This document shows positions 3-23,543 of a DNA stretch of 28,326 bases, piece by piece. The stretch lies in the IMG/VR virus record IMGVR_UViG_3300044617_001214, positions 1-28,326 of that record; one strand, 5' to 3'. The notes under the pieces are model-generated. The model saw nothing but the letters and a program-made list of their open reading frames with translations, ran no database searches and was not told where the DNA came from. Numbering within the stretch: the stretch's first letter is position 1; each line of letters starts with the position of its first letter. The translations under genes were made by a program, and so were the position numbers. This stretch comes from a virus.

Positions 3-209
3 GTCGAGCGCATCGAGACGCTCGAAGAGGAGAAGAAGGGCGTCGCGGGTGACATCAAGGACATCTACACCGAGGCCAAGGCCCGTGGGTATGATGGCAA
101 GATACTCCGCGAGATCGTCCGCATCCGCAAGATGGCCAAGGATGACAGGGATGAGCACTTCGCCGTGCTCAGCACCTACGCCAAGGCTATTGGCATGGAC
201 CTCCTGTAG
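3..209 (+). CDS. GapR-like (DUF2312) DNA-binding protein, C-terminal part
   Basis: The reading frame is open from the left edge and ends with TAG, giving 68 visible residues; the start lies outside the window. The translation has the GapR/DUF2312 pattern: a charged helix (RIETLEEEKK), then DIKDIYTEAKARGYDGK, ILREIVRIRKM and a C-terminal helix ending in YAKAIGMDLL. GapR of Caulobacter is a small nucleoid-associated protein that binds overtwisted AT-rich DNA and stimulates topoisomerases. A phage copy directly upstream of the polymerase operon could act in replication or compete with the host protein, which is inference. The family is concentrated in Alphaproteobacteria, so this gene is the best host clue in the window. 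It is followed by a hairpin that may end its transcript. Confidence 0.8.
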   Translation, partial: VERIETLEEEKKGVAGDIKDIYTEAKARGYDGKILREIVRIRKMAKDDRDEHFAVLSTYAKAIGMDLL

Positions 210-221
210 GTCTATATAACG

Positions 222-262
222 GGCGTGCCCACTCTGCTGACCCCCAATGGGGTGGGCACGCC
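222..262 (+). terminator. Hairpin after the GapR-like gene, possible terminator or attenuator
   Basis: An exact 11-bp inverted repeat, GGCGTGCCCAC (222-232) and GTGGGCACGCC (252-262), encloses a 19-base loop. A smaller CCCC/GGGG stem could form inside it as an alternative. The position just after a stop codon suits a terminator, but the downstream tract (CTCTGTTCTGG) is not a clean U-run, so strong intrinsic termination is doubtful. Its right arm shares bases 261-262 with the next, larger hairpin. Confidence 0.5.
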
Positions 263-342
263 TCTGTTCTGGTGAGCCGCGCGTGGGTGCGGGTCTCCTC
301 GCGTTGCTGATACACGAAGCGCGCGGCTCTCCCGAACAGAGG
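261..342 (+). promoter_or_regulatory. Long imperfect hairpin in the nuclease leader, overlapping its ribosome binding site
   Basis: Two exact inverted repeats nest in register: CCTCTGTTC (261-269) with GAACAGAGG (334-342), and GAGCCGCGCG (274-283) with CGCGCGGCTC (320-329). Two further G-C pairs and two mismatches join them, giving a stem of about 21 positions with a 36-base loop. The right arm contains part of the ribosome binding site AGAGGAG (338-344), which lies 9 bases before the ATG at 354. The stem could control translation of the nuclease or be an RNase III processing site like those of T7 mRNAs; both roles are inference. Confidence 0.55.
301..315 (-). repeat. 15-bp inverted repeat, copy 1 (leader of the nuclease gene)
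   Basis: GCGTTGCTGATACAC here is the exact reverse complement of bases 3803-3817. The 9-base core is also inverted locally: TGCTGATAC (305-313) against GTATCAGCA (344-352), the latter ending just before the ATG at 354. The copies lie in the only two leader regions of the plus-strand arm, which suggests a shared regulatory site. Confidence 0.55.
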
Positions 343-353
343 AGTATCAGCAC

Positions 354-998
354 ATGATCAAAGCAATCGAAACCCGCTACAAAGGCTATCGCTTCCGCAG
401 TCGCCTTGAGGCACGCTGGGCGATCTTCTTTGATCATCTCGGCCTGCGCTGGCAGTTTGAGCCCGAGGGGTTTGACCTGACCGAGCGTGGCCTCGGCTAT
501 TATCTGCCGGACTTTTTCCTGCCTGATCTCAATTACTGGATCGAGGTGAAGCCCGATAATTTTGACGATGAGGTCGCCTACAAGAAACTGGCTTACGTTG
601 CTCAAGCAACCAAATCGCAGGGGTTGGTCGTCGCTGGCGAGCCCTACATCAACGTAGAGTTGGGCTCTTTTGAACATTACGGCAACGCTGGCGACAGGTG
701 GTGGACTGTAGCCGTAGACGACTACGAGTGCGCCGGCATGTCGGATGGTCCGTACCTGTTTTGCGTCTGCCCGCTGTGCGACAAGATCGGTATTCAGTTC
801 GATGGGCGCGGCGAGCGCATTTGCAGCGACGAGGGCTGCGGCACCAAGCGCACGCGCGAGCACGCGTTTGCCTTGGGTTTCTGGCGCAGCCTGTATCACG
901 GCGACAAGGCTTACAGCGGCGACCACCCCCTGATCGTGGCTGCTGCCGAAGCGGCGCGCAGCGCGCGGTTTGAGCACAGCGAGACTGGTGCGGCGTGA
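354..998 (+). CDS. PD-(D/E)XK-type nuclease with C-terminal zinc ribbon
   Basis: A 214-residue protein starting at ATG 354 behind the ribosome binding site AGAGGAG. The N-terminal half has the phage PD-(D/E)XK arrangement: RSRLEARWAIFF with E19, then YLPDFFLP with D53, then WIEVKP with E64 and K66. These would be the metal-binding catalytic residues. The C-terminal half holds cysteines C137, C139, C142, C157 and C162, consistent with a zinc ribbon that may bind DNA. Such nucleases next to phage polymerases are thought to act in replication, recombination or host DNA breakdown; the substrate here is unknown. Its stop overlaps the polymerase start (GTGA), so the two are probably translationally coupled. 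Its leader is unusually structured. Confidence 0.7.
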   Translation: MIKAIETRYKGYRFRSRLEARWAIFFDHLGLRWQFEPEGFDLTERGLGYYLPDFFLPDLNYWIEVKPDNFDDEVAYKKLAYVAQATKSQGLVVAGEPYINVELGSFEHYGNAGDRWWTVAVDDYECAGMSDGPYLFCVCPLCDKIGIQFDGRGERICSDEGCGTKRTREHAFALGFWRSLYHGDKAYSGDHPLIVAAAEAARSARFEHSETGAA

Positions 999-2953
999 CC
1001 ACCCTCTACCTTGACTTAGAGACTTTCTGCGAAACTAAGATCACCTACGGCGCGTACCGCTATGCGGAGGACGCCGAGGTGCTGTTGGTGGCGTGGGCGT
1101 GGGACGACGAGCCCGTGAGCGTCTGGGATACGCAGGACATGCCGCACTGGCGTGATGCGCTGCAGATGATGATCGACACCGCCGAACGCATCGTGATCCA
1201 CAACAGCAACTTCGACCGCACCGTGCTGCGCGAGCAGCGCGTCCACATCCCCGTGGAGAAGATCGCCGACACCATGGTGCTGGCCCTGCAGCACAGCCTG
1301 CCCGGCTCGCTGGGCCAGCTCTGCGACGTGCTGAACGTGCCGCAGGACAAAGCTAAAGACAAGGCGGGGAAGAAGCTGATACACCTGTTTACGAAGCCAA
1401 GGGCCAGCAACGTGAAGGTACGGAGAGCCACCCGTGACACACACCCCGCCGAGTGGGATGCCTTCGTCGAATACGCCCGGCTGGATGTGGACGCAATGCG
1501 AGACGTACTTGGACGACTGCCGCCTTGGAACAATTGTGATCATGAGCGGCACCTGTGGCGGTGTGACCAAGGAATTAACGACCGTGGCGTTGCCGTGGAT
1601 ACTGTTTTCGCCCGAGCTGCTCTTCGAGCTTTCGACCGAGCTGGACGATCTCTGGCCACTCGTGCCTCCGCTCTGACGGGCGGCAGCGTCACGTCCGCCA
1701 CACAGCGCCAGCGCCTGCTCGACCACCTCAAGGACGCTCACGGCTTCGAGACCGAGGACCTGACGCGCGCCACGCTCGGCAACCTGCTCGGCGGTGACCT
1801 CAATCCGCAGGTGCGCGAGCTGCTGGAGATACGGCAGCAGGCCGCCGCCACGAGCCCAGCCAAGTACAGCGTGCTGCTCAACGCCACGAACCGAGACGGC
1901 CGCCTGCGCGGCCTGATTCAGTTCTGCGGCGCGGCGCGCACTGGGCGCGATGCCGGCCGTCTGTTCCAGCCGCAGAACCTGCCGCGCAGCCCCGACTGGT
2001 TCGACGACGACGTGCAGGCGACCACTGTCGCCGCCATGAAGGCCGACTGCGAGCACCTGATCTGGGACAACATCAGCGAGCGCTGCGCCTTCGCCGTGCG
2101 CGGTGCGCTGGTCGCCCCTGAGGGCAAGAAGCTCGTCATCGCCGATCTGTCGAACATTGAGGGCCGCGTGCTGGCGTGGCTGGCCGGCGAGGACTGGAAG
2201 GTCGCGGCCTTCAAGGCCTACGACCGGGGCGAGGGGCACGACCTGTACAAGGTCACCGCCGGCCGCATCCTCGGCAAGGACCCCGGCGACATCACCAAGG
2301 CCGAGCGCCAGCTTCAGGGCAAGGTGCCCGAGTTGGCCGGAGGCTATCAGGGCGGCGTGGGCGCATACCGGGTGATGGGCGGGAAGGTGTTCGACGCCAT
2401 GACCGATGAGGCCATCCAAGAGATCGTGACGGCGTGGCGCAAGGCGCACCCGCGCACGCGCAACCTGTGGTACGATATGGAGGCGGCCGCGCGGTCAGCC
2501 ATCAACAATCTGGGCGAGAGCTTTGGCGACCTGATCACGTGCGACGTGAAGCCGGACGGGCAGGGCATCGCGTGGCTGCGGATGCGGCTGCCGAGCGGTC
2601 GGTACCTGTGCTACCCGCGCCCGGAGGTGTCGGACAGCGGCAGCCTGTCCTACGAGGGCATGAACCAATTCACGCGCAAGTGGGAGCGCCTCGACACCTA
2701 CGGCGGCAAGCTGGTCGAGAATGCCGTGCAGGCCATCGCCCGCGACGTGTTCATGTCCGGCATGCTGCGCGCCGAGGAGGCCGGCTACAGCGTCTGCATC
2801 CGCGTACACGACGAGCTGGTCTGCGAGACGCCGGACGAGCCGGCGTACAGCAGCGAGGGGCTGGCCGCGCTCATGTCCACCAATCCGGGCTGGTCGGTGG
2901 GGCTGCCGCTTGCCGCCGCCGGCTTCGAGGCGTACCGTTACCGCAAGGATTGA
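995..2953 (+). CDS. Family A DNA polymerase (PolA-like) with 3'-5' exonuclease domain
   Basis: A 652-residue replicative polymerase of the phage family A type, starting at GTG 995, which overlaps the upstream stop. The exonuclease domain shows Exo I LDLET (D7, E9), Exo II HNSNFDRTVL (D74) and Exo III YARLDVDAM (Y160, D164), so proofreading looks intact. The polymerase domain shows motif A VIADLSNIEGR (D384), motif B QGKVPELAGGYQGG (K443, Y451) and motif C IRVHDELVCE (H605, D606, E607). The residue equivalent to E. coli Pol I Phe762 appears to be Leu447. There is no 5'-3' exonuclease domain, as usual for phage enzymes. It should copy the phage genome with the SNF2-like helicase and the nucleases encoded around it. 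Confidence 0.93.
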   Translation: MTTLYLDLETFCETKITYGAYRYAEDAEVLLVAWAWDDEPVSVWDTQDMPHWRDALQMMIDTAERIVIHNSNFDRTVLREQRVHIPVEKIADTMVLALQHSLPGSLGQLCDVLNVPQDKAKDKAGKKLIHLFTKPRASNVKVRRATRDTHPAEWDAFVEYARLDVDAMRDVLGRLPPWNNCDHERHLWRCDQGINDRGVAVDTVFARAALRAFDRAGRSLATRASALTGGSVTSATQRQRLLDHLKDAHGFETEDLTRATLGNLLGGDLNPQVRELLEIRQQAAATSPAKYSVLLNATNRDGRLRGLIQFCGAARTGRDAGRLFQPQNLPRSPDWFDDDVQATTVAAMKADCEHLIWDNISERCAFAVRGALVAPEGKKLVIADLSNIEGRVLAWLAGEDWKVAAFKAYDRGEGHDLYKVTAGRILGKDPGDITKAERQLQGKVPELAGGYQGGVGAYRVMGGKVFDAMTDEAIQEIVTAWRKAHPRTRNLWYDMEAAARSAINNLGESFGDLITCDVKPDGQGIAWLRMRLPSGRYLCYPRPEVSDSGSLSYEGMNQFTRKWERLDTYGGKLVENAVQAIARDVFMSGMLRAEEAGYSVCIRVHDELVCETPDEPAYSSEGLAALMSTNPGWSVGLPLAAAGFEAYRYRKD

Positions 2954-2954
2954 T

Positions 2955-3491
2955 ATGAACACCGCCAGCGCGTCACTACCCCACCACCAGTATGTCTGGG
3001 TCGATCAATCGTTCATCCGCGAGGGCGGCACCGGGTACGAAGAGGCGGTTTGGTTCGGGCTGCACAGTCACCCCACTAGGGCGTGGGGCTGTACTGTGAT
3101 GCTTGAGTGCGGTGCCGTGTATAGAAATCTGCCCCCACACGCCCTCGCGTTCAGCGCCGAGCCTGACGACTGGACGCTGCCACAGGCTCAGATGTGGGAC
3201 TGCTACGGCACCCAGTTCTCGCTGCTGCGTTACACGTTCCTGACCGGGCTGCAGGCGCGCAGCACGGCCGGCATATTGTGCGACTATCTGTTCACGGCGG
3301 TGCCCATCGGCGACGGCTACAGCGAACATCCGAGCCAGAGCAAAGAGTTCATGTTCATGCGGACAAAAGGTGAACGCTTGTTGATCCTGCCGACCAACAA
3401 GCTGCGCTTCATCGACAAGAGCTTCACCGTCGAGGGCGAGCGGCCGAGGCTGAAGCTGTCCGACACGGTGTGGAGCTGCGAGGAGCAGTGA
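2955..3491 (+). CDS. Hypothetical phage protein (178 aa)
   Basis: Starts at ATG 2955, one base after the polymerase stop, with AAGGA in the end of the polymerase gene as ribosome binding site. The frame is open further upstream, but that part lies over the polymerase and is low-quality shadow sequence. I do not recognise the family. The protein is rich in aromatic residues (YVWVDQSF, WDCYGTQFSLLRYTFL), has no predicted membrane segment and shows no catalytic motif I can name. Its place between the polymerase and a VRR-NUC nuclease suggests a role in DNA metabolism or early takeover. The stop overlaps the next start. Confidence 0.72.
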   Translation: MNTASASLPHHQYVWVDQSFIREGGTGYEEAVWFGLHSHPTRAWGCTVMLECGAVYRNLPPHALAFSAEPDDWTLPQAQMWDCYGTQFSLLRYTFLTGLQARSTAGILCDYLFTAVPIGDGYSEHPSQSKEFMFMRTKGERLLILPTNKLRFIDKSFTVEGERPRLKLSDTVWSCEEQ

Positions 3492-3784
3492 CGCCCGCCG
3501 GCAAGCTGCAGGAGCACCTGAAGTACGTCGTGAACCACAGCGGCGGGCAGTACCGCAAGACGCGCTGGGAAGGCCGCAGGGGCTGCCCTGACTGCTTCAT
3601 CTGGTGGGAGTGGCCGCGCGCCGCCTTCATCGAGATCAAGGCCGACGGCGATCGTCTCAGCGGCCACCAGCAGCGCGAGATCGAGCGCATGCGCGGCGAC
3701 GGCGTGCCGGTCTTCATCGCCCGGTCGATTGAGGACATCGACGAGATCGTGAAAAAAGTCAGGGAGGGGGGTTGCAATGCCTGA
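3488..3784 (+). CDS. VRR-NUC domain nuclease
   Basis: A 98-residue stand-alone VRR-NUC protein. The domain runs almost the full length: E8, then GCPDCF with D35, then FIEIKAD with E49 and K51, then LSGHQQREI with Q61, the usual order of active-site residues in this PD-(D/E)XK subgroup. Family members cut branched or structured DNA, and small phage versions are common near polymerases. I place the start at GTG 3488 because it overlaps the upstream stop as GTGA, like other junctions in this operon, with GAGGAG just upstream although only 2 bases away. GTG 3470 would add six residues. The end overlaps a short leader frame. Confidence 0.8.
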   Translation: MTPAGKLQEHLKYVVNHSGGQYRKTRWEGRRGCPDCFIWWEWPRAAFIEIKADGDRLSGHQQREIERMRGDGVPVFIARSIEDIDEIVKKVREGGCNA

Positions 3785-3884: not shown

Positions 3885-4263
3885 TGAAGACGGTTCGGTT
3901 ATCGTGGGTCGTTCGTTTTACGTAGTGGCCGAGGATGAAGCCGGTCATCGTTGGGCGCATGCGCATTCGTTTCTGGATCACGCCAAGCGTTACGACGAAG
4001 AAGAAGGCGCGTATTGGGCCCGTCGTTGGAACAACGAAGCTCAAGACGCAGTCGTTGCTCTTCTAGCTCGTATCGAAGCTCACGTTGCTGCCGGCGGCGC
4101 TCTTAACGAAGCTCATTGGGACGAGGTCGATCCGGGTTACGGTTCGGACGCTTATCAGGAGCTGGACGCCGTTGGTTATTTCGCGGCTCGTGAGCGTCAC
4201 GAGGCTCGTCAGGCCGGTGAAGCGGTTCCTTTCGATCAGGTCTACGATTATCATTTCGCTTGA
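3835..4263 (+). CDS. Acidic hypothetical phage protein with distinct codon use (142 aa)
   Basis: I choose ATG 3835 because AGGAG sits 8 bases upstream. A TTG-initiated extension from 3772 would add a Cys-rich segment but has poor spacing. The protein is small, soluble and strongly acidic, with runs such as DLGRDEDGS and RYDEEEGAYW, and the patterns VVAEDEAGHRWAHAHSF and HWDEVDPGYGSDAYQ. I have seen similar unassigned proteins in phages but cannot name a function. Codon choice differs clearly from its neighbours: CGT, GTT, GGT, GAA and TCG predominate where flanking genes use GCC, GGC, CTG and GAG. That pattern suits high expression early in infection or a different recent origin. Acidic charge also fits a DNA-mimic or host-enzyme inhibitor, which is speculation. 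Confidence 0.75.
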   Translation: MALSFRVRDDLVDLGRDEDGSVIVGRSFYVVAEDEAGHRWAHAHSFLDHAKRYDEEEGAYWARRWNNEAQDAVVALLARIEAHVAAGGALNEAHWDEVDPGYGSDAYQELDAVGYFAARERHEARQAGEAVPFDQVYDYHFA

Positions 4264-4274
4264 GAGGAAGGCAC

Positions 4275-4958
4275 GTGACCCTGCGCGTGGCGACGCTGCC
4301 GGAAGCCAAGGCTTGGTTCGCCCAGTACCACTACACGGGTACTGCGGCGGGCCACCGCTTCTACGCGTGGATCGGAGACGGCGCGATTGAAGGCGTTGTC
4401 GGCTTTGGGCGCGGCGGCAACCGTTTTGGCGTGGCTGACAAGTTTGGCCTCAACGCGTGGGCCGGCGGCCTTGAGATCACGCGCGTGGCTTGCCACCCTG
4501 ACGCCCCGAGGAACACCGCCTCGAAGATGGTCGCCGCCGCCCTGCGCCAGCTTGCGGCAGACGGGGAGCAGTGGGTCTTCACTTATGCGGACACCGCCCA
4601 CGGCCACCACGGCGGCATCTATCAGGCGCTCAACGCCGTGTACGTCGGCACCGACGCCAAGCAGTGGGTCAACTTCGAGCTGGACGGCCTCCGCGTCGCC
4701 AAGCGCGCCGTCAGCGGCCGCTTCGGCCACACGCGCTGGCCCGAGGTTCGCGACCTCGCGGCCGAGGCCGGACACGTCCTGTGCAAGGTGGCGTGGTGCC
4801 CGAAGCACACCTACGTGCTGCCGATCACGGGCGACCGCAAAGCGCTCCGCGCGATACGGGCCGCGCTGCAGCCGCTCGCGCTGCCGTACCCGAAGCCGGG
4901 GCAGCCCGTGGTGCCGACGCCCTACCGCAACCATCGACCGAAAGCGGACAGCCAGTGA
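4275..4958 (+). CDS. Mom-like DNA-modification acyltransferase (GNAT fold)
   Basis: A 227-residue protein starting at GTG 4275 behind AGAGGAAGG; a TTG at 4260 is a weaker start. The sequence follows the pattern of Mom-family proteins: an N-terminal AKAWFAQYHY segment, then LEITRVACHPDAPRNTASK (residues 66-84), then TYADTAHGHHGGIYQALN (103-120), and a late KHTYVLPI (177-184). Mu Mom converts adenine in phage DNA to a methylcarbamoyl-type derivative that blocks many restriction enzymes. The likely role here is hypermodification of phage DNA for protection from host nucleases. The partner and target base cannot be read from the sequence. Placement between early genes and the helicase fits action on replicating DNA. 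A generic GNAT acetyltransferase is the alternative. Confidence 0.65.
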   Translation: MTLRVATLPEAKAWFAQYHYTGTAAGHRFYAWIGDGAIEGVVGFGRGGNRFGVADKFGLNAWAGGLEITRVACHPDAPRNTASKMVAAALRQLAADGEQWVFTYADTAHGHHGGIYQALNAVYVGTDAKQWVNFELDGLRVAKRAVSGRFGHTRWPEVRDLAAEAGHVLCKVAWCPKHTYVLPITGDRKALRAIRAALQPLALPYPKPGQPVVPTPYRNHRPKADSQ

Positions 4959-6313: not shown

Positions 6314-6576
6314 ATGAGCTGACTGGCGGCAGCAGCGACTACTACAAGGTGCGCGTCGAGCGGCCCACGTCCGGCGGAGAGCCGTACACGGCCGAGTGCA
6401 ATGACATCATCGAGGCGCTGCGGATGGAGTACGACGTGGCCAACGCCTTCAAGGCGGCGTGGCGCGTTGCTGCACTGCGGCAGGGCCGGGGCAAGCCGGG
6501 TCAGGACAGCCCAGTGTACGACGGCGAGAAGATTGTCTTTTTCGGCCAGCGGATTGTGGAGCGGGCGAAGAGTTAG
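6310..6576 (+). CDS. Small conserved phage protein (88 aa), last gene of the early operon
   Basis: Starts at ATG 6310 overlapping the helicase stop, with GGAGG at 6300-6304 upstream. The sequence has the patterns DYYKVRV, PYTAECNDIIEALRM, NAFKAAWR and YDGEKIVFFGQR. These resemble small phage proteins of the DUF3310-like kind that sit next to replication genes, but I cannot assign it firmly. It is mostly helical and has no membrane segment. Its stop codon TAG (6574-6576) overlaps the TAA of the convergent minus-strand gene, so no terminator separates the two arms. Confidence 0.72.
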   Translation: MNELTGGSSDYYKVRVERPTSGGEPYTAECNDIIEALRMEYDVANAFKAAWRVAALRQGRGKPGQDSPVYDGEKIVFFGQRIVERAKS

Positions 6577-22739: not shown

Positions 22740-23543
22740 CTAAGAATGACCAAAGGCCCATTCGCCGTCGATTTGTTTATCGTAAACCATTTTGTTTAGT
22801 TCTTCGCAGAACTCGGCAACTTTAGGCGGTAGGTTAACATTAACCTTCTCAACAGAAATAGTTTCTCTAATTTTGTGCATACCGTCAAGACCATGATAAT
22901 TATCATCTTCGGCAAAAACTTGCTCAACTTTCTCGACATTATGCTGGAATTTATCCCAACCGTAAAAAGTGTAGATTAGGTCTAAAACTTTAAGTGGATC
23001 GGAAACTAAATCCCTGTAGTCTACGTACAGAAAGTTTTCTTGCGGTTGAGTTTTGCAAAGAGCAATAGCTTGCGCAGCCCTATAAATAGGTTCTGCTCCC
23101 GGCTGCATTAAGTCTTCGTACAGATCGCCTTGGTAGTCATTCTTAATACGCAAAGAGACTAACGATTTTACGACATCTTCAATAGGCCGGACAAGCACAA
23201 CAAATTTCTGATCTGGGTTAATATTATCCCGCCACATTTGTACGTTTGCGGGGTGGCACCACGTCCTGCCTTTTTCTATTATAATCGGCTTTTCGATGTC
23301 TTTGTAATAAAGGCTAGGCAAAGCAGACACGATGTCTTTTTTTGTGTTTTGTTTATTGTTTGCAAAAAGAGGTGGGTGGTTGTCGCACATCTGCTGCGTC
23401 TGCCACATCAGTTCGCAAAGAAGCGATGCACCCTCCCCGTGTATATTAGGGTTTTGCATAAGCAGATTGATTAGCAGCGTCGATCCCGTTCGGGGCAAAC
23501 CGCAAAACACCGCAAACTGCTGGTTTTTGCTATTCGCTACCAT
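22740..23543 (-). CDS. Sulfotransferase family protein (267 aa)
   Basis: Starts at ATG 23543, overlapping the fibre gene by 7 bases, without a strong ribosome binding site. The N-terminal CGLPRTGSTLL (14-24, with R18, S21 and T22) is the 5'-phosphosulfate-binding loop. VVLVRPIEDVVKSLVSLR (115-132, R119, S127) is the 3'-phosphate-binding motif. YVDYRDLVSDP (173-183) is a further family block. The enzyme should move sulfate from PAPS to a hydroxyl or amine of a glycan, lipid or protein. The gene is strikingly AT-rich (about 40% GC by eye) among GC-rich neighbours and uses A/T-ending codons, so transfer from another source is likely. Between receptor-binding genes it may modify the host surface or the virion, an inference. 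Confidence 0.8.
   Translation of the reverse strand: MVANSKNQQFAVFCGLPRTGSTLLINLLMQNPNIHGEGASLLCELMWQTQQMCDNHPPLFANNKQNTKKDIVSALPSLYYKDIEKPIIIEKGRTWCHPANVQMWRDNINPDQKFVVLVRPIEDVVKSLVSLRIKNDYQGDLYEDLMQPGAEPIYRAAQAIALCKTQPQENFLYVDYRDLVSDPLKVLDLIYTFYGWDKFQHNVEKVEQVFAEDDNYHGLDGMHKIRETISVEKVNVNLPPKVAEFCEELNKMVYDKQIDGEWAFGHS

Follow-up and report, generated by a model that had tools for sequence, protein, structure and literature searches.

Between the end of a GapR-like gene and the start of a nuclease-like gene, a linear virus record (IMG/VR IMGVR_UViG_3300044617_001214, G000; the whole 28,326 bases analysed are referred to below as the window) carries a short stretch predicted to fold into alternative RNA structures, which raises the question of whether this stretch controls translation and, if so, of which gene. 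The gene order at the window start is, on the + strand, the GapR-like gene end, the leader, the nuclease-like gene and a family A DNA polymerase. The reading favoured here, with a probability of roughly 0.65, is that the DNA polymerase operon of this phage has a conserved and structured 5' leader by which the initiation of translation is controlled in cis. The features on which the argument is built are as follows.

3..209, + strand: 3' part of the GapR-like gene (PF10073, DUF2312, E 7.1e-27; phrog_4212), with its TAG at 207-209
190..218, + strand: promoter-like signal put forward from conservation, TTGGCA (190-195), 17 nt, TATATA (213-218)
222..262, + strand: hairpin 1, with 222-236 paired with 248-262 plus 2 inner pairs (MFE fold)
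261..342, + strand: hairpin 2, from the alignment of 58 distinct leaders
261-269/334-342 and 271-272/331-332, + strand: lower stem of hairpin 2 (alignment)
273..330, + strand: 1x1 mismatch between lower and upper stem, U273.U330 in the window
274-283/320-329, + strand: upper stem of hairpin 2 (alignment)
291..300, + strand: small inner helix of the apical region, 291-293 with 298-300 (RNAalifold; changes one-sided only)
305..313, + strand: loop strand UGCUGAUAC of the loop-start pairing (S2), with 9 Watson-Crick pairs to 344-352
338..344, + strand: Shine-Dalgarno (SD) sequence AGAGGAG, partly or wholly inside the lower stem of hairpin 2
344..352, + strand: spacer strand GUAUCAGCA of S2, between SD and AUG, covarying with the loop in relatives
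354..998, + strand: first gene, nuclease-like, between leader and polymerase (phrog_21138, E 3.2e-38; phrog_9019, E 9e-10)
995..2953, + strand: DNA polymerase family A (phrog_17, E 1.9e-105; PF00476)

The N-terminal part of the nuclease-like protein (354-998) is resolvase-like, and a Pfam search with this protein gave no match. The sequence places the GTG start of the polymerase over the stop of the preceding gene, with an overlap of 4 nt. Named phages are distant relatives only, the best polymerase match among those listed being Caulobacter phage RW with 58.5% identity.

The original prediction had proposed two mutually exclusive hairpins ahead of the nuclease gene, one of them hiding the ribosome binding site, together with a third pairing between loop and start region, and had suggested folding of 205-370 and a search for compensatory changes in relatives. 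This region folds at -75.1 kcal/mol (z = -3.4) and is far more stable than its shuffles, none of 200 dinucleotide shuffles being as stable. The first stem was correctly located at 222-262 but had been given as 11 bp, whereas it comprises 15 continuous pairs plus 2. For hairpin 2, placed at 261-342 with ca. 21 positions, the alignment gives 21 main-stem pairs in the window, and both fold and alignment locate part of AGAGGAG (338-344) in its 3' arm, as had been proposed. The two hairpins do share 261-262, yet they are not mutually exclusive: both form together in the window and their competition is limited to C261 and C262. When hairpin 1 is complete, P(G222-C262) is 0.73, P(C262-G341) 0.27 and P(C261-G342) 0.12, and the 5-nt SD core of the window is then only partly masked (mean unpaired probability 0.41). 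When the transcript is instead taken to begin 7 nt past the -10 box, C261 and C262 both go to hairpin 2, the mean for the core falls to 0.19 and GAGG is 0.00-0.01 unpaired; across 60 leaders, the mean unpaired probability of the SD core is 0.10-0.19.

The leader was examined in 84 elements from related uncultivated phages, counts for the family being lower bounds ("at least"). In the close nuclease relatives (L001-L013), hairpin 2 is present with differing letters, as is hairpin 1 where the DNA extends far enough. DNA patterns derived from hairpin 2 further detected the same leader ahead of other genes. These patterns gave 75 listed matches with distinct cores, of which 9 were dropped as false positives and 66 kept; the final set comprises 65 leaders, L231 (cut at a contig end) being out and L123 being included after reading by hand. 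The first gene after the leader encodes the polymerase in 27 of the 65, a protein of 97-100 aa in 25 (two members tested: phrog_23243), a nuclease in 9, a PAPS-reductase-like protein in 2 (one tested: phrog_424), and a Mom-like protein and an unassigned protein in one case each. Of the 38 leaders with an inserted gene ahead of the polymerase, 32 show an overlap between the stop of that gene and the polymerase start. Describing the element as a nuclease leader is too narrow (nuclease first in 9/65), the constant neighbours being GapR upstream and the DNA polymerase downstream. A GapR end is readable in 61 of the 65 leaders, those without it being L133, L135, L235 and L129. In L135 (reverse strand, match 6463-6571), the GapR-like frame upstream of the leader runs on without interruption into the 3' half of hairpin 1; a deletion or misassembly affecting the GapR end together with the hairpin's 5' half would give this picture.

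A polymerase profile detected at least 80 loci, 73 with a + strand match of the covariance model R1, and a second, outward polymerase scan added at least 6 further contigs, 4 of which carry the element. Among the matches listed, the leader precedes the family A polymerase or the small inserted gene in 77 of 79 relatives with upstream DNA, a figure that leaves out 7 contig-end cuts (6 of the 80 loci, cut inside the polymerase, plus L357). The leader element is absent from L302, in which the upstream gene differs, and from L361 (53% identity, GapR-like gene present), which is also devoid of hairpin 2. R1 indicates one leader copy per record in 21/21 records up to 60 kb; weak extra matches (E 0.08-0.8) were taken as chance.

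Bacterial copies were sought with the exact hairpin 2 pattern, which gave 0 matches in the genome_contigs collection, and via the nuclease alignment, which gave none. For distant nuclease homologues, 47 of the 71 loci L030-L100 were read and, among the matches listed, the leader was found in none. Comparison of the leader DNA of L133 and L154 with named phages returned only a 22-nt match that was taken as chance, and R1 found no match on stretches of Caulobacter phage RW, Erythrobacter R22L and Azospirillum Cd.

Recurrence of the leader in related phages with compensatory changes argues that it is more than chance. In the alignment of 58 distinct leaders, 10 of the 24 predicted pairs of hairpin 2 changed on both sides and 97.6% of the cells of the main helix are paired. 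For the whole structure including S2, 94.9% of cells pair and changes on both sides occur in 107 cells versus a mean of 32.8 when shuffled and at most 7 when slid. Hairpin 1 is variable in sequence with compensating changes: its own arms form 8.6 Watson-Crick pairs out of 10 versus 6.0 after swapping arms between elements. Six tests of hairpin 1 on the GapR tree revealed independent changes that follow and none (0) that is opposite, each test being too small for significance, as are the single tests of hairpin 2 on the tree. Judged by these substitution patterns, the leader hairpins are real, conserved RNA structure. The compensatory changes whose search had been suggested are therefore present in relatives, and the proposal of alternative structures, one of which hides the ribosome binding site, is supported by this covariation.

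A DNA-level element (a replication origin, a recombination site or a protein-binding palindrome) rather than an RNA could also account for a sequence that is near-palindromic on both strands, opposite-strand R1 matches being the mirror of the palindrome, and the same leader is indeed joined to different genes and adjoined by replication genes. However, a functional + strand RNA is expected to show more G.U than A.C, and this is what was counted (12 versus 1 in hairpin 2, and 13 versus 5 in hairpin 1). This asymmetry, together with an SD and a start-region pairing that a DNA element leaves unexplained, renders it highly improbable.

One position of the long stem departs from pairing. At the border between lower and upper stem, a C.A is found in 47 and a U.U in 11 of the 58 rows, a standard pair in none, and the position is unpaired, as read by eye, in all 19 diverged folds (19 elements of the 84, excluding the near-copies L304, L305, L312 and L335). 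When the mismatch was scored over the 84 elements, 12 were unscored since the stem chain is broken at a neighbouring internal loop; 8 of these 12 were examined individually and the mismatch was present. Such a geometry brings in RNase III processing, the main rival, in which the host enzyme would cut the long stem, the lower strands would part and the SD would be freed, with the mismatch steering or limiting the cut. The length of the stem (median 23 pairs for hairpin 2) is compatible with an RNase III processing site, and the conserved mismatch lies just before the start codon. In adhE and lambda cIII, RNase III is described as relieving an occluded ribosome binding site, which lies in secondary structure there as it does here; loop-start pairing is absent from their description in the excerpt of that source (PMC5371410). 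It is precisely the covariation between the loop and the SD-AUG spacer (see below) that this explanation leaves without a cause, and RNase III processing is considered a serious but somewhat unlikely account of the leader.

The beginning of the leader bears on another alternative. TTGG occurs in 61/61 readable leaders, with TA at the -10-like box, 17 nt beyond the end of the TTGG hexamer, in all of them and TATA there in 55. The codon that supplies TT is ATT (39) or CTT (22) in all 61; in the genes of the window, by contrast, ATT represents 19% of Ile codons and CTT 11% of Leu codons. The first pair of hairpin 1 falls 3-5 nt past the -10 box in 50/50 distinct hairpins. The case for a candidate promoter is thus one of sequence conservation. 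Since a strict sigma-70 scan called no promoter at 190-218 and L359/L360, the members that have diverged most, lack the signal by eye, transcription is only proposed here to begin at hairpin 1. A single-subunit RNA polymerase (PF00940), the candidate owner of a CTATAGG-like signal, gave 0 matches in 12 records but likewise 0 in the control genomes, so that this search carries no weight either way.

Hairpin 1 might instead end GapR transcripts, with hairpin 2 acting as a read-through control. It is rich in GC and has a readable GapR stop before it in 61/65 elements, and L361, which has no hairpin 2, displays by eye, at the corresponding position after GapR, a GC hairpin followed by CUCUUUU, which would fit an origin of hairpin 1 from a GapR terminator. 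Such a terminator or attenuator is nevertheless unlikely: in the window, a scan found no terminator-like site at 222-262 and no T-rich tract, hairpin 1 is followed by a CU-rich tract with complementarity to the SD, and the promoter-like signal precedes hairpin 1.

The third pairing had been proposed between loop positions 306-313 and 344-351, which are indeed complementary; it extends to 9 pairs (305-313 with 344-352) and has p = 0.003 in the window when compared with 300 shuffles of the start region. S2 with at least 7 pairs occurs in 48 of the 84 elements, window included, and is weak or absent in the other 36, in which a pairing of this length is missing. With the start region shuffled, p is at most 0.05 in 32 of 62 distinct loop-spacer combinations. 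In the group whose loop reads GCUGAUA, the base that follows and its partner in the spacer are C/G in 24 cases, A/T in 11, C/T in 1 and A/G in 0. The strongest evidence for S2, which is of a comparative nature, is provided by diverged members in which the predicted helix has other sequences: GCUGAUCCUUC with GAAGGAUCAGC in L299 and L300; GUUGCUGACA with UGUCAGCAAC, spanning the AUG, in L323; GGUUGUCCCA with UGGGACAACC in L359 and L360; UCGUUGCUGA with UCAGCAACGA in L139; and GUUGCUCU with AGAGCAAC in L355. In this last element (L355:1903-2012), S2 appears to use the loop of the inner hairpin (GUUGCUCU) and not the usual loop strand, so that the pairing site may have shifted.

S2 of at least 7 pairs is absent from the whole GUUGUUGGUAAC group and from L145, L214 and L258, near polymerase-first relatives of the window, all of which keep the loop sequence despite the missing pairing. 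Within the window clade, loop-spacer pairing is kept in members with an inserted first gene (the window, L110, L222, L218 and L220) and is missing in polymerase-first members (L145, L214, L239, L173 and L258). Switches of S2 on the tree amount to three well supported independent pairs, two of which follow and one of which shows no difference, a comparison that is underpowered and not significant.

Loop letters that are nearly invariant within groups, even where S2 is missing, could also point to a ligand riboswitch, in which a small molecule would be bound by the conserved apical region. SD-masking pseudoknot leaders are one style of riboswitch, which fits, and some of the first genes concern DNA modification chemistry. 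Against this, no pathway is common to the first genes, L359/L360 have had their loop sequence replaced yet keep S2, and Rfam has no matching family, so that a ligand riboswitch is very unlikely. At the gathering score, Rfam gave 0 matches in the window and 0 in six related loci, the sub-threshold matches being only at E up to 5. 

Returning to a translational leader of the polymerase operon, the best reading of its structure is that of two competing states, an SD-masked hairpin and an SD-exposed pseudoknot. In most elements, the gap between the lower stem and the spacer strand is 0-2 nt, and because it is so short S2 should be excluded, on geometric grounds, while the lower stem stands. We thus infer from geometry that the lower-stem and S2 pairings compete; the third pairing stands as an alternative whose sole competitor would be the SD-masking lower portion of hairpin 2. 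Once the lower stem has opened, an SD strand of ca. 13-15 nt spans an upper stem of 10-12 pairs, with the invariant mismatch at the border, which is the usual shape of an H-type pseudoknot.

In state I, the lower stem would keep the SD masked. In state II, hairpin 2 would open at the mismatch, losing its lower stem and retaining the upper one; loop and spacer would form an H-type pseudoknot, and the freed SD strand of 13-15 nt would cross the upper stem. The 30S subunit could then dock on the SD and melt S2, a short helix, as it does on rpsO. The balance between these states may be biased by a factor of phage or host origin, possibly the polymerase. Located at the foot of this putative transcript, hairpin 1 might protect its 5' end and tune the balance via the shared bases 261-262. 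Nearest-neighbour energies value the lower stem at 14.3-25.5 kcal/mol (mean 19.4) and strong S2 duplexes at about -14 to -19 kcal/mol before any pseudoknot penalty. These energies favour state I, so that unaided the hairpin state should dominate, and it is therefore proposed that the leader is masked by default and that S2 is reached with help. Since the conserved shape hides the SD and the loop may pair with the start region, the leader probably times polymerase synthesis. Going further, it could represent an undescribed class of RNA switch of uncultivated, probably alphaproteobacterial, phages, in which the two states meet at the mismatch, the balance senses the replication state (free polymerase or another replication protein) and inserted genes are co-controlled; this extension is tentative and, on balance, doubtful.

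The leader resembles several known operators. The E. coli rpsO operator (ribosomal protein S15) also has a pseudoknot at the ribosome binding site which, according to the excerpt of PMC3858243, base-pairs with the beginning of the coding region as 30S binds at the SD, and which S15 then traps. A loop-start pseudoknot of this type is predicted in the 48 elements mentioned above, window included, and not in the other 36; the present leader differs from rpsO in that the alternative is a long SD-masking hairpin and the gene that of a phage DNA polymerase, with no sequence relation. The polymerase of T4, gp43, belongs to family B. In T4 and RB69, gene 43 is preceded by an RNA hairpin that overlaps the ribosome binding site and mediates autogenous repression, these operators being of 18 and 16 bases with no pseudoknot evidence in the excerpt of PMC3014915. 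Here too a phage DNA polymerase gene is preceded by a structure that overlaps the ribosome binding site, directly so in the 27 polymerase-first leaders, whereas the polymerase is of family A, the leader is ca. 130 nt and neither the polymerase family nor the hairpin is shared by homology. UAAC, found in the loop of T4 gene 43, recurs in many of the present loops, perhaps by chance. T4 gene 32 is another case of a phage mRNA pseudoknot ahead of a replication protein gene, used for translational autocontrol; in the same excerpt (PMC3014915) it lies 67 nt upstream of the AUG, the bound A+U-rich stretch extending over the ribosome binding site, whereas here the start region itself would be a pseudoknot strand. 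By analogy, the best reading is that the leader would work like the rpsO or T4 gene 43/32 operators while being unrelated to them in sequence. Judged by title and the opening of the abstract, none of the open-access papers listed on phage polymerase or pseudoknot operators, DUF2312 in phages and structured phage RNAs deals with it, and it is filed here as a cis-acting translational leader outside the described families.

Detailed knowledge of translational operators of phage replication proteins comes mainly from T4-like phages. The present data point to a compact leader guarding a family A polymerase across diverse uncultivated phages, and two competing pairings in this leader have support at the base-pair level. 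Bistable control of translation in phage replication thereby becomes open to direct tests in vitro, and the leader provides a marker for polymerase operons in viral metagenomes. Because small genes (nuclease, Mom-like and others) sit before the polymerase with stops overlapping its start, the leader slot also suggests a landing site where newcomer genes inherit ready-made control.

The first gene after the leader in L160 (L160:416-709) has no Pfam or PHROG match; from its motif, its product begins like what we take to be a 6-pyruvoyl-tetrahydropterin synthase/QueD, hinting that base modification genes use the leader slot. In L139, the position right after the leader is taken by a Mom-like gene. 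In the window, a Mom-like DNA modification protein is encoded at 4260-4958 (PF25680, E 8e-24), a VRR-NUC domain protein (PF08774) lies downstream of the polymerase at 3470-3784, and a sulfotransferase-like gene (PF13469) is found at 22740-23543 among minus-strand genes.
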